38,866 nt of DNA from Gammaproteobacteria bacterium (GTDB lineage Bacteria; Pseudomonadota; Gammaproteobacteria; Pseudomonadales; Azotimanducaceae). Numbering within the stretch: position 1 is the stretch's first letter; each line of letters starts with the position of its first letter. The notes under the pieces are model-generated. The model had not been told where the DNA came from. It made no database searches and saw nothing but the letters and a program-made list of their open reading frames with translations. A program made the position numbers and the translations under genes. Shown in pieces: positions 966 through 8,971 of this stretch. Where the stretch lies: the NCBI GenBank assembly GCA_026705345.1, contig JAPPAV010000111.1:1-38866 (forward strand), given 5' to 3'.

Positions 966-1393
966 GACCCCAGTTCGCTGGCGAGCAGCTCCCGGCTGAA
1001 AGCGCCGATCGCATCCCGGATTCGACGGAACACGGCCGTGAACGCTTCGTCGTCCATCCACGGATAGTCTGGATCCTCGAAGGCGCGGTGCAGCGTTCGC
1101 TTTGCACCGGGAAAAACGGGACAGGCTTCCTTCGCCTGGTCGCACACCGTCACGACTAGGTCGAAGTCGTCGTCGAGGTAGTCGTCGACGTGATCGGAAG
1201 TGTGCCCGGCAATGTCGATGCCGATTTCGGCCATCACCTTGATCGCCACCGGGTGAACGCCCTTGGGTGCCGTTCCCGCGCTCTCGACCTCAACCCGCTC
1301 GCCCCCGAGGTGCCGGAGCCAACCGTGTGCCATTTGCGAGCGAGCGCGGTTGCCGGTGCAGATGACGAGTATCCGAAACGGCGTGCGGCTCAC
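962..1393 (-). CDS. arsC: Arsenate reductase / low-molecular-weight phosphatase family (ArsC, thioredoxin type)
   Basis: The 143-residue protein has the LMW-phosphatase signature C12-T-G-N-R-A-R18 (CX5R) after a beta-strand, a later Cys pair C84 and C91 as in the three-cysteine relay of thioredoxin-coupled ArsC, and an E-D-P-D loop near residue 107 carrying the general-acid Asp. The family reduces arsenate to arsenite in the cytoplasm. I chose the GTG at 1391-1393 because it overlaps the TGA of the upstream dioxygenase gene (GTGA), which indicates translational coupling; a longer frame would run through that gene. No arsB, acr3 or arsR lies nearby, which is unusual. The stop codon lies inside a REP hairpin. 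A protein-tyrosine-phosphatase role is less likely given the Cys pair. Confidence 0.88.
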   Translation of the reverse strand: MSRTPFRILVICTGNRARSQMAHGWLRHLGGERVEVESAGTAPKGVHPVAIKVMAEIGIDIAGHTSDHVDDYLDDDFDLVVTVCDQAKEACPVFPGAKRTLHRAFEDPDYPWMDDEAFTAVFRRIRDAIGAFSRELLASELGS

Positions 1394-2544
1394 AGCCGCG
1401 GAGACTTCGTCAGAACACTGATGGCGTGCTTGAGATGCAGCGCGAGTTCGAGGTCGTCCGCGGCTAGGGCCGTGGCTTTGCGTTCTTGCAGGGACCGCAG
1501 TTTCGCCGCGAAGGCGTCGTTGTCGACGGGTGCGTAGGTGGGGCCGTCCATGTTCGCGTCCATCGGGTGGCCGTGAGCACCTGGCACCAGCACGTCGAAG
1601 TCCTCTTTCAACACCGAGTCCGCCGGTGCCTGGCACTCCGCGACGTAGTTCAGCGCCCCGGCGGGTTGCCGGTAGCCGATCAGCCGCTGCAACTCTACCG
1701 GCAGCTTGCGGGCGATGGGCGGCGGACAGGCCAGCAGCTGGTTCTCCTCCTGGGCGAGAAACCCCAACGCGTAGTTGATGTTCATACCGATGCGGCGTTC
1801 GGTGGATGTGTTGATCCCCGCGCCGTGAACCGACCAGCCTGTCCAGACCAGCGCGCTGCCCTTGGGCATGGTCGCCTGGACCGTCGGCTGCCGATGGCTT
1901 AAGTGTCCGCCCCGGGGTTCCTCGCGATGGCTGCCGAGGACGACGTGGGTGGCGCCGTTGTCTTCAGTGAAATCGGACAGCGCCCACATCACCTCGACCT
2001 GCGGGTCGAGGCGGGCGTCCTGGAAATCATGGACCCACATCCCGTTGGCCCGGTGCAGCTTGAGATGGTGCGGCATGGCCTCGGTGCCGGCGCCTGGACC
2101 CACGTCGATGATCTGCGTCAGGTGCAGTTGCCACGGATAGCGAAAGCCCTTCTCGCCCTTGCCCGATTTGCCGTTGATCTGCACGGCATCGCCGGACAGG
2201 CGCTGTTCGCCCAGGATCGCATTGGCGAGGCGGAGGATCGCCGGGTGGGCGATCATCTTGTGGCTCGCGGGCGACCTCGCCACCAACGCACCGACGCGGC
2301 GGGTGCCGCCAAGCCCGTGCAAACCGTGCGGCGTGGCGTCGATGTAGGGACGCATCTCCCCGACCAGGGCATCGCAGTCGGTGCCCTCCACCGCGTTCTC
2401 GATCACCACGAAGCCGTGGCGGTCGACGGCGTTTAAGACGTGCCGGTCGAAGTCCTCTTCCGACCCTGCCGATCTGGCGCGGGCGAAGTCGAAGCGGAGC
2501 AGTTCGTGGGTGCCGAACGCGTTGGTGACTGTGGATGCGCGCAT
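1390..2544 (-). CDS. Phytanoyl-CoA dioxygenase (PhyH) family protein with an H-x-A iron motif; possible halogenase-like enzyme
   Basis: The 384-residue protein has clear PhyH-family landmarks: W-A-L-S-D-F-T-E-D-N-G-A-T at 187-199 followed by V-V-L-G-S-H, the distal iron ligand H240 in S-V-H-G-A-G, and E-R-R-I-G at 249-253 with the likely 2-oxoglutarate-binding Arg. Where family members have L-H-R-D, this protein reads L-H164-R-A166-N, so the carboxylate of the HxD facial triad is replaced by Ala. In Fe(II)/2OG halogenases such as SyrB2 the same Asp-to-Ala/Gly change opens the chloride site. Halogenase activity here is inference; an inactive or altered oxygenase is the alternative. About 100 C-terminal residues extend beyond the core and end in helical segments. 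The gene is translationally coupled to arsC. Confidence 0.85.
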   Translation of the reverse strand: MRASTVTNAFGTHELLRFDFARARSAGSEEDFDRHVLNAVDRHGFVVIENAVEGTDCDALVGEMRPYIDATPHGLHGLGGTRRVGALVARSPASHKMIAHPAILRLANAILGEQRLSGDAVQINGKSGKGEKGFRYPWQLHLTQIIDVGPGAGTEAMPHHLKLHRANGMWVHDFQDARLDPQVEVMWALSDFTEDNGATHVVLGSHREEPRGGHLSHRQPTVQATMPKGSALVWTGWSVHGAGINTSTERRIGMNINYALGFLAQEENQLLACPPPIARKLPVELQRLIGYRQPAGALNYVAECQAPADSVLKEDFDVLVPGAHGHPMDANMDGPTYAPVDNDAFAAKLRSLQERKATALAADDLELALHLKHAISVLTKSPRL

Positions 2545-2660
2545 GATCTGGTCTTTCCCGTCGCCGCCGCATTATCGGCGGGAACGGGCGAGCGCGCCAC
2601 GGTACGAGAACGTGCAGGTATGCTGTGTCGCTTTCGGCAACCCAGCGAGATGAGGCGAAG

Positions 2661-3599
2661 ATGGCGAGTGAACCAGGGGCCAAAGACAATGCACACCCCG
2701 ACTTGGGTGTGCTCGCGGGAGGCGTGGCGGTTGTCACCGGCGGTGCCTCGGGCATCGGCCTCGCCTTGGTGGAGAAGGCGATCGCCAGCGGAATGCACGC
2801 GGTGATCGCCGACATCGAAGCCGCTGCGATCGACGAGGCGGAATCCCGCTTGGCCGACGCCGCAAGGGCAGCGGGAGTCGAGGTCTTCGGGCACCGCGTC
2901 GACGTCTCCTCGGAGGCGGATGTCCTCGACTTGGAAGCGGCCGTATCGGCTCGTTTTCCGGACAGCCCGGTGTCGCTCCTGTGCTGCAATGCGGGTGTCG
3001 GCGGCGGGGGTCCCGTGTCCAGGGCCAGCGACGTCGACTGGGACTTCGTGCTCGGCGTCAATGTCAAGGGTGTTGCGAACTGCGTGCGCGCATTCGTCCC
3101 CAAGATGGCGGCGGGCGACGCCCCCGGATCCGTAATGGCGACGTCGTCGCAGGACGGGTTGTGCGCCGCCCAAGGCGTCTACGGCGTCTCGAAGCACGCC
3201 TGCGTGGCGTTGATGGAAGCCCTCTACCAGGAACTCCGCGGGCGCCTCACGGTGCATGTGCTATGTCCGAACGTCGTAGCCACCAACATCGTGACCTCCG
3301 AACGCAACCGACCGGCGCGTTTCGGCGGCCCGCGCGCAACCGGCGCCGCGAATTCCATCCAGGAACGCTTCAAGGCGTTCGGCATGCCCCCATCGCGCTG
3401 CGCGGATTTCGTGTTCGACGCCATCCGCACGGGCACGTTCTACGTCATGGCCGAGTCGGAGGACGATCCCGGCTACGTCCGCCTAGAAGCCGAGACGCGC
3501 ATGAAGGCGATCCTCGAGGACGGCTTGCCCTACCGTCCCCGCAGCGCCTACATCGCCAGCGTGTTCAATCCGCGGACCCCGATGCCGCCAAAGCGCTGA
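2661..3599 (+). CDS. Short-chain dehydrogenase/reductase (SDR)
   Basis: A 312-residue NAD(P)-dependent oxidoreductase with classical SDR motifs in order: T26-G-G-A-S-G-I-G33 for the cofactor, N110-A-G-V, a Ser at 162-163, and the catalytic Y174-G-V-S-K178. The acidic residue D51, after the second strand (I-A-D51), suggests NAD(H) preference. I chose the ATG at 2661 over a GTG 36 bases upstream because GAGG is correctly spaced before it. The C-terminal 60 residues extend past the usual 250-residue core. The gene diverges from the PhyH gene, with about 115 bp between the two starts, so both may be served by one intergenic region. The substrate cannot be predicted. Confidence 0.92.
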   Translation: MASEPGAKDNAHPDLGVLAGGVAVVTGGASGIGLALVEKAIASGMHAVIADIEAAAIDEAESRLADAARAAGVEVFGHRVDVSSEADVLDLEAAVSARFPDSPVSLLCCNAGVGGGGPVSRASDVDWDFVLGVNVKGVANCVRAFVPKMAAGDAPGSVMATSSQDGLCAAQGVYGVSKHACVALMEALYQELRGRLTVHVLCPNVVATNIVTSERNRPARFGGPRATGAANSIQERFKAFGMPPSRCADFVFDAIRTGTFYVMAESEDDPGYVRLEAETRMKAILEDGLPYRPRSAYIASVFNPRTPMPPKR

Positions 3600-3653
3600 A
3601 TACCGTTGGCGGGGGACGCGCTTGCCTGTCACGCGCCGAACCCTTGTCGACGC

Positions 3654-3734
3654 GGGCGACGACAAGGGTCGCCCCTACGGTCAACGCGTGACGTTCGATG
3701 GAGCCAACCGTAGGGGACGGGCTTGTCCCGTCCC
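3654..3734. repeat. REP-like pair in tail-to-tail topology, locus 2
   Basis: The left hairpin (3654-3678) ends in CTAC. The right one (3710-3734) starts with GTAG, stem GGGACGGG and loop CTTGT. The GTAG feet face each other across 31 bp, the reverse of the usual arrangement in this window. The pair lies between the convergent SDR and serine-hydrolase genes, 37 bp from the latter's stop. Confidence 0.85.
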
Positions 3735-3771
3735 GACTTGCGCTTGGCCATGGAACGTACCCCGTTGCCGG

Positions 3772-5019
3772 TCAAACGAGCGCTTGGTACACCAACCGCT
3801 GGAAGTCCTCCTGGTAGGTGTTGTTCGGCATCATGCCGGCGGACATCACCTGGGTCAGGCACACGCCGATGAGCTCTTCCGCCGGGTCCGCGAAGTAGGT
3901 GGTTCCGGCAGCGCCGCCCCAGCCGTACGTGCCCACCGAGCGGATCAGCGGCGGCCGCCCGCGGCCGTGGTACATGGCGACGCCGAGACCCCAATGGAAC
4001 CCCGGTCCCGTCATCGGAATGACCATGTCGCCGGTGTGGTTGCCGATCATCATGTCGACGGTTTTCCGGCCTAGTATCCGCACGCCGTCCAACTCGCCGC
4101 CGTTGAGAAGCATCTGGCCGAAGCGCGCGTAGTCGCCTGCCGTCGACAGCACGCCGCCCATGTCGCCGCCGGCCGAGAACTCGGTCTTGGGGCCGACGAC
4201 CTTCTCGCTGCTCTCGGCCTTTTCGACTGCCACTAGGCGAATCTCGCCGTCCACTTCCCGGGGCGCGTAGTTGGCACCGAAGCGGTGGACCGCGTCGTCG
4301 GCGACATAGAAGCCGGTGTCGTCCATGCCCAGGGGCTCGAAGATCGCCTCCCGGAAGAAGACGTCCAGAGGCTGGCCGCTCGCTTCCTCGAGCACAGCGG
4401 TGAGCACGGGATAGCCGACATGGTAGCCGAACTGTTCGCCGGGCTGCGCGGCCAGCGGTAGCTCCGCCAGCGCTCGGATCCGCTCCCGGTTGTTCGGACG
4501 CGGCGCGTCTTCGTCGGTAGGTATCCAGCCAAGCTTGGTGAGGGTGTCGCGATACTGCTGGCGATAGAAATGCGGCATCGTGCCCGGATTGGCAAGCCCC
4601 GTGGTGTTGGTCAGGCAGTCGCGGATGGTGATGCCGCGCCGGGCGCGCTCGGTCAGCATCGGCTCGTCGGCCCGGCGCACCTGCAGATCCCGCCACTCGG
4701 GCAGGTACCGGCCGACGGAATCGTCCTGGGTCAGCACGCCGCGTTCGTACAGCACCATCGTCGCCGCGCCGGCGATGGGCTTGGTATTCGAGTACATCCG
4801 GAACAACGTATCGAGCCCGGCGGGCGCATCGTCGTCCAAGTCCAGCACCCCGCAGGCATGGTGGTGGACGATCTGGCCGTGACGGGCAACGAGCGTGACG
4901 AGGTTCGGGACGCGCCGATCGTCGACAAACGCCTGCATCGCAGGCCCGATTTGGGCCAGGCGGTCCGGGTCGAAACCAAGCGCCGACGGGTCGCCGACGG
5001 GCAAGGGGGAGTCTGACAT
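3772..5019 (-). CDS. Serine hydrolase, class C beta-lactamase / family VIII esterase fold
   Basis: The 415-residue protein has the nucleophile motif S77-N-T-K80 (SxxK) at the usual place after M-Y. The second motif, normally Y-x-N, reads Y199-H-V, and the third is a Gly-rich G-W-G-G-A-A-G-T-T strand near the C-terminus. Such proteins include esterases, D-aminopeptidases and true beta-lactamases. Loss of the Asn and absence of a signal peptide favour a cytoplasmic esterase or amidase over antibiotic resistance. I prefer the ATG at 5019, preceded by an AAGAGAG stretch, to an ATG 18 bases upstream that has no ribosome site. No neighbour shares its strand closely, so it is probably monocistronic. 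Confidence 0.9.
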   Translation of the reverse strand: MSDSPLPVGDPSALGFDPDRLAQIGPAMQAFVDDRRVPNLVTLVARHGQIVHHHACGVLDLDDDAPAGLDTLFRMYSNTKPIAGAATMVLYERGVLTQDDSVGRYLPEWRDLQVRRADEPMLTERARRGITIRDCLTNTTGLANPGTMPHFYRQQYRDTLTKLGWIPTDEDAPRPNNRERIRALAELPLAAQPGEQFGYHVGYPVLTAVLEEASGQPLDVFFREAIFEPLGMDDTGFYVADDAVHRFGANYAPREVDGEIRLVAVEKAESSEKVVGPKTEFSAGGDMGGVLSTAGDYARFGQMLLNGGELDGVRILGRKTVDMMIGNHTGDMVIPMTGPGFHWGLGVAMYHGRGRPPLIRSVGTYGWGGAAGTTYFADPAEELIGVCLTQVMSAGMMPNNTYQEDFQRLVYQALV

Positions 5020-5138
5020 GCGTGCTCTCTTGGACATTCAACGAGTGGAACGCGCCATTGTCGCAGGTTTTGCCTGGGGCCTTGGCACCATCGGACTGTC
5101 CTCCGTGCAACGGCAACGCAAGCCTGCGGCGTGGCCTC

Positions 5139-5216
5139 GTAGGGGCGACCCTTGTGGTCGCCCGCCCGGTCGCGACGCAGTGATTCGGCACGGGACGGGG
5201 CAAGCCCGTCCCCTAC
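5139..5216. repeat. REP-like inverted pair (BIME), locus 3
   Basis: A forward hairpin with GTAG foot, stem GGGCGACC and loop CTTGT at 5139-5163 is followed by an inverted GGGACGGG hairpin ending in CTAC at 5216. The pair lies between the serine-hydrolase start and the end of the hipT-like gene. Confidence 0.88.
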
Positions 5217-5241
5217 GCGCAGGATCAGAGGGCGACGCCCA

Positions 5242-6192
5242 CTAGCTCCATTCGAGCGAGTCGAGACGTCTGCCGATCAGCGACAGGTAGTGCGTCTGCT
5301 GGTCGGTCGGGACAAAGGATTCCGCGATTCGCCGCCGCCATGCGGGAACGGACGTCAGCAACTCTTTCCGCACGCGCTCGACGACCTTGGGCGGAACTCG
5401 CAGACGCTCGTTGGCGTAGTAGCCGATCCAGTCCTTGGCGCCGAGTCGCCGCTTCTTGCCATGGAGCGGCAGCGCGACTTCCTCCAGGGTCTCTAGGCGT
5501 TTGCCGAGTGCGAGGAACGCCACGGTGGTGTTGAGGTAGTCGTACGCGGGGGCGAGTTCGACCTTGCCGTGCCGGGCGATCACCGAGAGGTTCTTGAGAT
5601 GCATGTCCTCGTTGCCGACGAGGAAATTGAACAGGCTCCTCTTTAGGAGCTTGACCTTCTCGATGGCCGGAAACGTGCAATAGGCGTCGAGCAAGCCGAC
5701 CACGCGTTCCATGCTGAAGTCGTACTTCGTGTCCCGGCCCAATCCCGCGAGCTGGGCAAAGTCCTCCACCGCCACCTTGCCATCGTGCCCGACGCGATCG
5801 AACCTTCGCACGAAATAGGACCATGATCCGTCGACGCAACGGACGAGGCCGGACACCGGCACCTCGATGCCGGCGAGTTTCGCCAGTTGCATCGTGAGGC
5901 CCTCGTTTTCCGGTAAGTTCGGGTAGATCTCGTGCTGGGGTTTGAGCACGAAACGCCCGCCTCGGTCCGTGACCACGAATACACCGGCCTTGGCATCCAA
6001 GCGGACGCCGAGCTTGGGTTGGACACCCTGGATCGACATGTTTCCCGCCCGGACCACGGCCTCGCGCCGTTGTTGCGGGGCGTCGTAGGGAAAGTCGTTC
6101 AGCACAGCCAGATTGGGCGAGAGCGCCCGCAGGCCTGCCTTCGAATACCGCGCATCGCCACAGAGCGCGTAGGTGATCGGGCAGCGATTCAA
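5242..6192 (-). CDS. hipT: HipT-like serine/threonine kinase toxin (kinase core of a split HipA)
   Basis: The 316-residue protein covers the HipA kinase core but lacks the N-terminal HipA subdomain, which is encoded by the preceding gene. Visible elements are the Gly-rich loop N-M-S53-I-Q-G-V-Q-P-K60, nucleotide-site K84 (F-V-L-K-P), catalytic G-N-E-D196 with K200-N201, and metal-binding D218 (A-Y-D-Y). Known HipA and HipT kinases phosphorylate aminoacyl-tRNA synthetases: GltX for E. coli HipA and TrpS for HipT of E. coli O127:H6. S53 aligns with the autophosphorylated loop Ser; the second Ser of the SxS type is Gln here. The start ATG overlaps the hipS stop (ATGA). The target of this kinase is unknown. 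Confidence 0.9.
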   Translation of the reverse strand: MNRCPITYALCGDARYSKAGLRALSPNLAVLNDFPYDAPQQRREAVVRAGNMSIQGVQPKLGVRLDAKAGVFVVTDRGGRFVLKPQHEIYPNLPENEGLTMQLAKLAGIEVPVSGLVRCVDGSWSYFVRRFDRVGHDGKVAVEDFAQLAGLGRDTKYDFSMERVVGLLDAYCTFPAIEKVKLLKRSLFNFLVGNEDMHLKNLSVIARHGKVELAPAYDYLNTTVAFLALGKRLETLEEVALPLHGKKRRLGAKDWIGYYANERLRVPPKVVERVRKELLTSVPAWRRRIAESFVPTDQQTHYLSLIGRRLDSLEWS

Positions 6193-6500
6193 GAGAGCTG
6201 TTCCCGAACCGTCACCGCGCCGACGACATCCTCGCCCACCGCCAACAGCTGTCCGAACAGGTCGTTGCGGTCGATCTTCCGCTGGCGCAGCAGGCCATCA
6301 AGCATGACCCCTTCCGGCAGCAGGCCCTCGAAGAAAGGCGGGAAGGCGTCGAACCAGATCGTTCCCGCCGACACGGGCATGGTCAGCGACACGGCGGGTC
6401 CGGTGTAGCCGTCGAGGTAGCGAAAAAGGAATCGCGACGATTCGTGCTCCTCCAGCAGTCCGGCCGGTTCGCCCGCGACGAAGACCGTGGCCCGCCTCAT
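6189..6500 (-). CDS. hipS: HipS-like protein (HipA N-terminal subdomain as a separate gene)
   Basis: The 103-residue protein matches the N-subdomain of HipA: the early strand pair with G-E-P-A-G-L-L, then P-A-V-S-L-T-M-P, then P-P-F-F-E-G-L-L-P-E-G, the diagnostic motif. In HipBST of E. coli O127:H6 the equivalent HipS neutralises HipT. The ATG at 6500 overlaps the hipB stop and its own stop overlaps the hipT start, both as ATGA, so the three proteins are probably made in fixed ratio. Length and order (B, S, T) fit HipBST rather than a recent frameshift of hipA, because both junctions are clean stop/start overlaps. Confidence 0.9.
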   Translation of the reverse strand: MRRATVFVAGEPAGLLEEHESSRFLFRYLDGYTGPAVSLTMPVSAGTIWFDAFPPFFEGLLPEGVMLDGLLRQRKIDRNDLFGQLLAVGEDVVGAVTVREQLS

Positions 6501-6769
6501 GGCCCGGTGTCCGTGTCCGGTTCGGCCGGGTCTCCCAGTGCAGCACGGCACTCGTCCATGAGCGGCCCGTCGAGCATCAAGTCGATGTTGAGGACACCCA
6601 AGACCGCCATTAACGTGGCCAGGCGAACCGTGGGTTTCCCCTTTTCGATGTCGAACACCGAGGTCTTGCCGATCCGTGCCAAATCAGCCAACTCGTGCTG
6701 GCTCAAACCTCCGCGACGCCGGTGAAATCGAACGATGTCGCCCAGAACGTTGGACGTGTTCGCTTTCAT
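6497..6769 (-). CDS. hipB: HipB-like XRE-family antitoxin/repressor
   Basis: The 90-residue protein has an XRE helix-turn-helix at about residues 9-65: L-S-Q-H-E-L-A-D-L-A, then G-K-T-S-V-F-D-I-E-K-G-K-P-T-V. I chose the ATG at 6769 rather than the longer frame to 6814 because the longer version would read through an operator and the -10 region. The C-terminal tail is acidic and probably flexible. Three palindromes upstream are its likely binding sites, implying autorepression. It is the first gene of the hipB-hipS-hipT operon. Confidence 0.9.
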   Translation of the reverse strand: MKANTSNVLGDIVRFHRRRGGLSQHELADLARIGKTSVFDIEKGKPTVRLATLMAVLGVLNIDLMLDGPLMDECRAALGDPAEPDTDTGP

Positions 6770-6781
6770 GACCACATCTCG

Positions 6782-6797
6782 TACTGGTATAGCGGTA
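6782..6797. promoter_or_regulatory. hipBST operator O1 (imperfect palindrome)
   Basis: TACTGGTATAGCGGTA is a two-mismatch version of the perfect palindrome at 6914. It directly abuts the predicted -10 element of the hipB promoter and lies 12 bp upstream of the hipB start. Binding here would block initiation. Confidence 0.7.
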
Positions 6798-6825
6798 TAA
6801 TGCGCCTGAAACACTGCGCCATCAA
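6797..6825 (-). promoter_or_regulatory. Predicted sigma-70-type promoter of hipBST
   Basis: On the minus strand, TTGATG (6825-6820) and CATTAT (6802-6797) are separated by 17 bp. Transcription would start near 6790, leaving a leader of about 20 bases to the hipB ATG. The -10 shares its edge with operator O1. Confidence 0.55.
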
Positions 6826-6842
6826 CCTATTTCGGGATAATT

Positions 6843-6858
6843 TACCGATATAGCGGTA
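6843..6858. promoter_or_regulatory. hipBST operator O2
   Basis: TACCGATATAGCGGTA differs from the perfect palindrome at one position. It lies 61 bp from O1, close to six helical turns, and just upstream of the -35 region. Confidence 0.75.
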
Positions 6859-6913
6859 ATCGGAGGCTGATCCACCGGCTGAGGTCGCGTCCGGCAACTT
6901 TTTACAAAGATAA

Positions 6914-6929
6914 TACCGCTATAGCGGTA
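6914..6929. promoter_or_regulatory. hipBST operator O3 (perfect 16-bp palindrome)
   Basis: TACCGCTATAGCGGTA equals its own reverse complement. Its TACC-N8-GGTA form resembles the TATCC-N8-GGATA operators known for E. coli HipB. It lies 71 bp beyond O2, so looping or cooperative binding along the region is plausible. Confidence 0.8.
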
Positions 6930-6985
6930 ACGTCGTGAGGAGTATGCGCGCCCGTCTGTCGCAGCTGCTTTGAGGACGGTGGACG

Positions 6986-7017
6986 GTGGAGAATGCCTAT
7001 AGTGGAGAATGCCTATA
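6986..7017 (+). repeat. Perfect tandem duplication of a 16-bp unit
   Basis: GTGGAGAATGCCTATA occurs twice without a gap, immediately upstream of the ribosome site of the VOC gene. Each copy contains an ATG. The second copy places TATA just before GGGAGG. Confidence 0.9.
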
Positions 7018-7034
7018 AAGGGAGGCAACTGAAG

Positions 7035-7430
7035 ATGAGGATTCACCTAGCCAGCGTCTTCGTAGACGACCAACAGAAGGCGCTCCGTTTTTACACGGAA
7101 ACGTTGGGCTTCAAGCTGAAGCACAACATTTCCCTAGGACGTCATGCTTGGATCACTGTTGTATCTGAGGAAGCTCCAGAGGGGATGGAGCTGGTGCTCG
7201 AGCCCGACGAACATCCGGCGGTCCGTCCGTACAGGACGGCGCTCGTGAAGGACGGCATCCCCAGTACGTCGTTCGCTGTGGACGACTTGGAAGCCGAACA
7301 CGAGCGACTCGTTGCCAAAGGCGTTCGATTCGTCCAGCCGCCAACAGACCTCGGGACTGTGATTACCGCCGTCTTTGACGATACGTGCGGCAACTTGATC
7401 CAGATCGCGGAGGAGAAACGTCAGGGCTAA
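7035..7430 (+). CDS. VOC family protein (glyoxalase/bleomycin-resistance fold)
   Basis: The 131-residue protein has the paired beta-alpha-beta-beta-beta modules of the VOC superfamily: S-V-F-V-D-D-Q-Q-K-A-L-R-F-Y at the start and D-L-E-A-E-H-E-R-L-V-A-K-G-V-R-F in the second half, ending in T-C-G-N-L-I-Q-I. Members bind a divalent metal and act as lyases, dioxygenases or binding proteins. I chose the ATG at 7035 because GGGAGG lies 9 bases upstream; an earlier in-frame ATG at 6993 sits inside the tandem duplication. The substrate cannot be assigned. A sulfatase gene follows after 41 bp. Confidence 0.9.
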   Translation: MRIHLASVFVDDQQKALRFYTETLGFKLKHNISLGRHAWITVVSEEAPEGMELVLEPDEHPAVRPYRTALVKDGIPSTSFAVDDLEAEHERLVAKGVRFVQPPTDLGTVITAVFDDTCGNLIQIAEEKRQG

Positions 7431-7471
7431 CCGCCGCCAAGCAAACTAGCCGGCAACATGGACCAGGCAGC

Positions 7472-8971
7472 ATGACCGAGAGACCGAACATTCTGTTCAT
7501 CCTCACCGACGACCAAGGCTATTGGGCCATGGGATGCGCTGGCAACGAGGAGATCCGCACTCCGAATCTCGACCGGCTGGCAGCCAGCGGATTGCGTTTC
7601 ACCAGCTTCTTCTGTACCTCCCCGGTCTGCTCGCCCGCGCGGGCGTCGATCCTGACCGGGCGGATCCCGTCGCAGCACGGCATCCATGACTTCCTGAGCG
7701 CAGGGAACACGAACCTGGCCTTCGGGGCGGGCGCGAAGCCGGGAGACGAGGCGATCGAATACCTTGCGGGCATCCCGGCCTACACCGATCTCCTGGCCGC
7801 GGCCGGCTACACGTGCGCCTTGAGCGGCAAGTGGCACATGGGCTTCTCCGAGAAGCCGCAGAAGAGCTTCGAGTTCTGGGACGTGCACGCATACGGCGCC
7901 GGGGCGTACTTCGCGCCGTCGATGATTCGCGATGGGGCTGCCTACGAGACGAACCAATACGCGAGCGATCTGTTTACGGACAATGCGTTGCGGTTCCTCA
8001 CGCAGCAGAAGGACACCGGCCGGCCGTTCTGCCTGAATGTCCACTTCACGGCGCCGCATGCGCCTTGGCAGCGAGAACATCACCCGGCCGAGTTGTGGGA
8101 CGACTACTACGCGAACTGCCCGTTCGAGTCCACGCCGGACCTTCCCATGCACCCGCATCAACTGGCCAAGGAGGGCCCGTCCGGTTCGCTCGGCTTCACG
8201 GCCCAGGGTAGGAAAGAGGCCCTAAGCGGCTATTTCTCCGCGCTGACGAAAATGGATGAGAACGTCGGACGCCTGCTCGACTGGCTCGAGCGGAACGGGG
8301 AACGCGAGAACACGCTCGTGGTGTTCTCTAGCGACAACGGCATGAACATGGGGCACCACGGCATCTACGGCAAGGGCAACGGCACGTTTCCGCCGAACAT
8401 GTTCGATACGTCGGTCAAGGTCCCGATGCTGATGTCTCGACCGGGGCACATTCCCGAGGGCCGCCTTGTCGCCACGCTCCACAGCCACTACGACCTGATG
8501 CCCACGCTGCTTGAATATGTCGGGGTCGAGAATCCGGAAGCGGACTCGTTGCCGGGACTGAGCTTCCGGGATGCGCTCGACGGCAGGGAGTTGGCCGGTG
8601 ACGACTACGTCGTGGTGTTCGACGAATACGGCCCGACGCGCATGGTCCGCACGGCCGACTGGAAATACGTGCATCGCTACCCCTACGGCGACCACGAACT
8701 CTACGATCTCGCCAACGATCCGGACGAGCAATACAACCTCATCGACCGGGACGAACACAGGGAGATGCACAAGTCCCTGCAGGCCAGGCTCGATGCGTTC
8801 TTCGCACGGTTCGCGGATCCGGCGCGCGACGGTTCGCGCGAGGCGGTGATCGGCAGGGGTCAGATCGACGTGGTCGGCCCGGCCGCCCAAGGCAGGAAGC
8901 GGTTCGGGGACGATCTGCTCTTCGAGGCGGACCGGCTCAAGGGGACTGTCCGCGGTACCGTGAAGGACTAG
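7472..8971 (+). CDS. Type I (Cys-type) sulfatase
   Basis: The 499-residue protein begins with the alkaline-phosphatase-superfamily strand and metal site D13-D14-Q. It contains the maturation motif C53-S-P-A-R57 followed by A-S-I-L-T-G-R, so C53 would become formylglycine. A second metal-site segment S-S-D-N-G lies near residue 288. It hydrolyses a sulfate ester, possibly on a polysaccharide or small arylsulfate. No signal peptide is evident, so it is predicted cytoplasmic. A formylglycine-generating enzyme must be encoded elsewhere. A second, broken sulfatase gene lies at 35.4-36.2 kb. Confidence 0.93.
   Translation: MTERPNILFILTDDQGYWAMGCAGNEEIRTPNLDRLAASGLRFTSFFCTSPVCSPARASILTGRIPSQHGIHDFLSAGNTNLAFGAGAKPGDEAIEYLAGIPAYTDLLAAAGYTCALSGKWHMGFSEKPQKSFEFWDVHAYGAGAYFAPSMIRDGAAYETNQYASDLFTDNALRFLTQQKDTGRPFCLNVHFTAPHAPWQREHHPAELWDDYYANCPFESTPDLPMHPHQLAKEGPSGSLGFTAQGRKEALSGYFSALTKMDENVGRLLDWLERNGERENTLVVFSSDNGMNMGHHGIYGKGNGTFPPNMFDTSVKVPMLMSRPGHIPEGRLVATLHSHYDLMPTLLEYVGVENPEADSLPGLSFRDALDGRELAGDDYVVVFDEYGPTRMVRTADWKYVHRYPYGDHELYDLANDPDEQYNLIDRDEHREMHKSLQARLDAFFARFADPARDGSREAVIGRGQIDVVGPAAQGRKRFGDDLLFEADRLKGTVRGTVKD

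Follow-up and report, generated by a model that had tools for sequence, protein, structure and literature searches.

Loss of the iron-binding aspartate in a gammaproteobacterial clade of PhyH-family proteins: a tentative case for a free-standing halogenase

Proteins of the PhyH family have the H-x-D/E...H triad as their hallmark, and the replacement of the Asp by Gly or Ala (HxG/A) is taken as a mark of Fe/2-oxoglutarate (2OG) halogenases in PMC11186838 and PMC13244439. The window analysed here, i.e., the whole stretch of 38,866 nucleotides at positions 1 to 38,866 of contig JAPPAV010000111.1 (assembly GCA_026705345.1, Azotimanducaceae), encodes a PhyH-family protein in which H-x-D reads H-R-A, and the question that it raises is whether such a protein is a halogenase, an oxygenase with a rearranged iron site or no longer an enzyme of this kind at all. 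The gene and the residues under discussion are the following:

1390..2544, minus strand: PhyH-family Fe(II)/2OG-type protein of 384 amino acids, the subject of this report (open reading frame with ATG start; Pfam)
1789..2424, minus strand: PhyH domain, residues 41-252 (Pfam PF05721)
2104..2106, minus strand: D147, invariant in 25 HxA/HxG rows (row comparison)
2047..2055, minus strand: H164-R165-A166 in place of H-x-D, the first iron His and the absent carboxylate ligand (alignments)
2041..2046, minus strand: N167-G168, invariant in the HxA/HxG rows (row comparison)
1993..1995, minus strand: E184, invariant in the HxA/HxG rows, a candidate relocated carboxylate (row comparison and alignments)
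1825..1827, minus strand: H240, the distal iron His (alignments)
1792..1794, minus strand: R251, opposite the 2OG-binding Arg226 of PrhA (HMM alignment)

PhyH was the sole Pfam model to match the window protein over its cut-off (PF05721, E 2.6e-21, 77.3 bits against a curated cut-off of 22, residues 41-252), and the triad of the family is incomplete, with Ala or Gly for Asp in all clade rows read and the distal His kept. The original prediction had matched H164-R-A166 to the H-R-D of the family, and two alignments confirm this placement. In a profile-profile comparison by hhalign of the clade alignment A1 (21 rows) with the alignment A2 of 13 HxD relatives, HRA lies opposite HRD (probability 100, 248 columns), and in an HMM alignment with PrhA it lies opposite His130-Arg-Asp132, with R251 opposite Arg226. 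The iron triad of PrhA is described as His130-Asp132-His214, with Arg226 as a 2OG contact (PMC5760668). The distal His (H240) and the 2OG Arg (R251), which had been said to be kept, are indeed present in the window protein and in all HxA/HxG rows that extend over these positions, and the protein has the residue set of an Fe/2OG halogenase, i.e., HxG/HxA for HxD/E with the distal His and 2OG Arg retained. The further claim that 22 residues separate the first His from the M-W-A-L motif, as in ordinary members, is right for the window protein (22), but the spacing in sister proteins, read by eye, is 20-22 and not uniform.

The H-R-A subgroup that was proposed as a check among homologues does exist, since all 23 related loci and all 35 family matches are HxA/HxG. 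The related loci, found at 54-92% identity in a scan of genome contigs, have Ala at position 166 in 21 cases (20 with HRA, L015 with HKA) and Gly in two (L022 and L023, about 54% identical to the window protein). A profile search (E up to 1e-70) gave close matches in 35 of the 206 genomes of the family, own included, and in six of its 37 genera. Across these matches (rows L103-L119 and L148-L166, where L119 and L162 are one gene) residue 166 is Ala in 25 and Gly in 10, N167 and E184 are found in all 35, and H240 and R251 in all 34 that cover those positions. Within the window's genus the gene is carried by 15 of 16 genomes, own included. No further HxA/HxG member was seen among the matches read from a class sample of 369 genomes (E up to 1e-20; also with the HxD profile) or a phylum sample of 398 genomes (E up to 1e-25), and the three HxA/HxG matches in an order sample of 194 genomes (E up to 1e-30) were the own genome and two family members already counted. 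The clade was likewise absent from the viral contigs searched; HxD queries of these contigs returned L144-L147, and the motif was read in L144-L146. No publication title among the literature matches listed concerns an HxA/HxG PhyH clade. Several record titles of clade members are marine (Tara Red Sea, ALOHA, MED-G24), which points to a halide-rich setting, and the RHO, COS, IRC and SB isolates are, we presume, sponge-derived.

A maximum-likelihood tree of 59 rows places the 25 HxA and three HxG rows in one clade (support 100/100, with a long stem of 2.06), divided into HxA (98/97) and HxG (94/90) subgroups, with 31 HxD/HxE rows outside, so that a single loss of the carboxylate explains these rows. 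Between the window gene and L001-L004, dN/dS is 0.11-0.14. The codons have turned over among 24 sequences, with A166 written as GCC, GCG, GCA and GCT and Gly as GGC and GGA, and Glu184 is likewise encoded by differing synonymous codons across members. One in-frame stop occurs in L019 and ambiguous bases in L020 and L021, and the other 20 of the 23 loci have neither. A pseudogene or sequencing error was rejected because the variant is fixed across loci and genomes, dN/dS lies in the range just given and the codons turn over synonymously. Being shared by all related loci, confined to one supported clade and under purifying selection, the HxA/HxG site is, on the evidence of the sequences, an inherited and maintained variant of the triad in a gammaproteobacterial clade, not decay or error. 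The expectation of an enzyme altered rather than decayed agrees with this picture of an old, selected variant that retains the other ligands. Loss of a ligand often marks a pseudoenzyme, and the protein might now serve in binding or regulation, or work as an enzyme with another metal or without 2OG; but this is quite improbable given that H164, H240 and R251 are invariant, as are many residues of the core, that dN/dS is as stated, and that position 166 holds only Ala or Gly and not the spread of a dead site.

The window protein is one of many PhyH proteins in its own genome, where 75 PhyH matches were counted in 5.07 Mb, as against a match in one of 14 control genomes. Position 166 is Asp in 67 of the 75, Ala in the window protein, Gly in L070 and His in L066; L092, L094, L099 and L102 have no aligned residue there, and L101 is doubtful. 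The window protein is the sole HxA among those that can be read at 166. The motif L-H-G-G stands at the H-x-D site in L070, L094 and L101 of this genome (G000), by eye in the latter two, and these paralogues may form a further PhyH subgroup that lacks the Asp ligand; L078, which is related to them, has H-A-D. L066 (G000:C103:35789-36382, minus strand) has H-Q-H for H-x-D, possibly a three-His site.

Close relatives of the clade keep the Asp. The HxD PhyH sisters (L120-L128, L134 and L135, mostly LHRDRWAW-like) and the phytanoyl-CoA dioxygenase family proteins of plasmids, L202-L205, share with the clade the core motifs, the distal His and the Arg, at 32-43% identity in the comparisons made, and differ from it in having Asp at 166 and, for the most part, Asn at 184. 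Compared with HxD relatives, the clade also has an insert of about 20 residues near 113-135, and in its HxA members the loop that precedes H164 is longer and the C-terminus is extended by about 75 residues. On a plasmid of Sphingobium, one HxD relative, L205 (1-1149), comes directly after the gene of an acyl-homoserine-lactone synthase, and the same pairing is described for Novosphingobium (PMC3704786).

Among the matches listed, the best solved relatives by sequence and predicted fold are the fungal PhyH-type oxygenases AsqJ, PrhA/AusE, AndA, SptF, TlxJ and OkaE, at 17-24% identity in the fold matches listed. Unlike the clade, PrhA/AusE (His130-Asp132-His214) and AsqJ (Asp-136) are described as having the triad intact (PMC5760668, PMC6015105). 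Two AlphaFold2 models were built, with mean pLDDT of 64.7 and 71.5, and L144-L146 were added for depth in the second, in which the HRA loop is weakly predicted (block means of 63 and 67 for residues 161-180). Searched by fold, the second model had AsqJ as its best match (4.8e-18), then AndA and PrhA, among the matches listed. No entry described as a halogenase was found in the best 50 of its 526 fold matches (E up to 0.001), nor among the 50 fold matches listed for the first model.

The best single reading, which we put forward tentatively, is that the clade represents an independently evolved, free-standing Fe/2OG radical halogenase. An ancestral PhyH enzyme would have lost its Asp ligand once and gone on working as a free-standing Fe(II)/2OG enzyme; iron would be held by H164 and H240 and 2OG by R251, both bindings being predicted from the alignments, chloride or bromide would occupy the vacated Asp site, and a ferryl species would take a hydrogen from a small free substrate, upon which the halide would then rebound. 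The restriction of residue 166 to Ala or Gly in all 23 loci and all 35 family matches suggests that the space there has been kept. Known Fe/2OG halogenases are reported as HxG/A proteins of several families with very low mutual similarity (PMC11186838, PMC13244439, PMC12871659), and since they span dissimilar families a further independent origin would not be strange. SyrB2 and CytC3 have HxA and the distal His, like the clade, and their substrates are described as carrier-bound (PMC4227530). BesD, WelO5, AdaV and the DAH halogenases, likened to the clade here by their description, are of the HxG/A class and act on free substrates (PMC11186838, PMC13244439); none of them was retrieved by the sequence and fold searches made with the clade.

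Several observations count against the halogenase reading, among them the want of closeness, in sequence or fold, to any known halogenase. The 49 PDB sequences that match the clade profile (E up to 10) include neither SyrB2 nor CytC3 nor any other entry named as a known halogenase; the window protein matched no NCBIfam model up to E 0.1, the SyrB2-type model TIGR01762 included, and no PHROGs family. Across 174 genomes of the order TIGR01762 matched nothing over its cut-off; in the own genome, where 13 of 39 first-look candidates were scored, it had 13 matches, and the window gene is not one of them. The presence of the gene in nearly the whole genus is also unlike what would be expected of a specialised natural-product enzyme. 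Changing the Asp of a prolyl hydroxylase to Ala or Gly is reported to have given neither hydroxylation nor halogenation (PMC2767507), and in a hydroxylase homologue of BesD one such change was insufficient for halogenation (PMC13244439); these failed conversions, together with the existence of the two-His hydroxylase AspH, weigh on the same side.

A further objection comes from residue 184, which is Glu in all 25 HxA/HxG rows as compared to Asn (20), Ser (two), Gln (one) and Glu (one) in the 24 HxD rows. Other positions separate the same two sets of rows: N167 occurs in none of the 24 HxD relatives and G168 in one, D147 in none (four have Glu, and Asp recurs in the more distant rows L132 and L177), and W234 and W237 are further clade-wide changes. 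E184 falls in a well-predicted strand of the second AlphaFold2 model (182-188, block mean pLDDT 92). Aligned through the own-genome paralogue L029, it lies opposite SyrB2 Thr-143 and its CytC3 counterpart, so that Glu184 stands in all clade rows where the SyrB2 type has its second-sphere Thr. In SyrB2, Thr-143 is part of a chloride/water network. This Thr is residue 146 of the chain, numbered 143 after subtraction of an offset of three residues that was confirmed with His116 and His235, the His numbering being that of PMC4227530. In AsqJ the aligned residue is Asn-157 (position 157 of the 308-residue chain), which a QM/MM study counts among the polar residues that hydrogen-bond to the substrate or to metal ligands (PMC6015105). 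An invariant Glu at this place would repel a halide unless protonated. Judged by its aligned residues, the candidate enzyme resembles halogenases in the first shell, differs from the SyrB2 type in the second and is PhyH by descent. The halogenase envisaged in the original prediction is in this respect upheld in part: the Asp is replaced, the other ligands are kept and the site holds only Ala or Gly, as in halogenases, but closeness to known halogenases is lacking and E184 opposes a simple SyrB2-like chloride site.

E184 could reach the iron in the space left by the Asp, hold a water or contact the substrate. If it were to bind iron from the strand after the HxD loop, a 2-His-1-carboxylate site would be rebuilt with its carboxylate moved from position 166, and the protein would be an oxygenase of altered geometry, for instance a hydroxylase or a desaturase. 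This we regard as doubtful. The near-exclusive pairing of E184 with HxA/HxG (25 of 25 rows against one of 24 HxD rows), its alignment with residues beside the iron in AsqJ and SyrB2, the side chain of Glu, which is one CH2 longer than that of Asn, and the gain of Glu on the same stem as the loss of Asp, as suggested by the tree and the row comparison, all speak for such a ligand. Relocation of the carboxylate between strands is not known to us from any natural 2OG oxygenase. On the other side, L181 and L182 have Glu at 184 alongside an intact H-R-D...H triad, and two paralogues of the own genome combine H-Q-D with Glu (L024) and Asp (L027) at this position; because of these intact triads E184 is no proof of a ligand role, and the Glu-ligand reading is not ranked above the halogenase. 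Studies of engineered enzymes point both ways, a carboxylate at a His position being partly tolerated in AspH and TauD, and a rearrangement of ligands having abolished prolyl hydroxylase activity (PMC2767507). The distal iron His of L057 (G361:C64) has become Gln, and sisters 75-77% identical to it keep the His; L057, which has E184, was considered as a second case of a Glu ligand and dropped, as its sisters L181 and L182 combine E184 with an intact triad. The fallback first proposed, with D173 or D176 as the ligand, fails because neither is conserved: Asn replaces D173 in L007, L008 and L014, and several residues occur at D176 across the related loci.

A site with two His ligands might also suffice for normal hydroxylation, with a water at the third protein site, perhaps held by E184 and N167, both polar and invariant. 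AspH, the aspartate/asparagine beta-hydroxylase, which hydroxylates EGF-like domains, is described as active with two His only (PMC10947486), and the sister proteins of the clade are HxD oxygenase-like. AspH, however, is from another family, the Asp/Arg beta-hydroxylases, to which the window protein with PhyH as its sole Pfam match over cut-off does not belong, and the two-His set is a likeness only; loss of the Asp is further reported to have ended hydroxylation in an engineered prolyl hydroxylase and in TauD (PMC2767507). We consider an AspH-like oxygenase unlikely.

The surroundings of the gene were also compared between loci. Its neighbour in the window is:

2625..3599, plus strand: short-chain dehydrogenase (SDR, adh_short), divergent from the PhyH gene (Pfam)

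The SDR also touches the related KR model of Pfam. Of the 23 related loci, 11 have an orthologue of it (73-95% identity) in the vicinity of the PhyH gene, eight of them directly beside it; on this side of the gene some loci are short. The start codon of the PhyH gene and the stop codon of a 782-784-codon upstream ORF overlap as ATGA in L007, L008 and L014 (around 3600-7143), where the SDR lies beyond that ORF; the ORF of L007, the one scanned with Pfam, is a penicillin amidase. In planktonic loci such as L012 the neighbours include enoyl-CoA hydratases. As the neighbours differ between loci, no common pathway emerges. Also near the gene in the window are a Beta-lactamase (PF00144) gene at 3772-5037 that recurs in L001-L006, a HipA_C gene at 5242-6192 that recurs in L001 and L004, and a sulfatase gene at 7385-8971 that recurs in L001-L004. 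Pfam detected no NRPS/PKS or carrier-protein gene among the ORFs scanned, 19 others of the window and 10 neighbours in related loci, which fits a free-standing enzyme acting on a small molecule and, at the same time, has to be listed against the halogenase reading.

If the clade is a halogenase, aliphatic C-H halogenation would have arisen independently once more, in an enzyme carried by 15 of the 16 genomes of one genus and by marine relatives, and its close HxD sisters would make the switch from hydroxylase to halogenase directly testable. If it is not, it would be a conserved counter-example to the equation of HxG/A with halogenases, which a current annotation pipeline applies as a rule (PMC12871659), and it may show that a carboxylate ligand has moved between strands.
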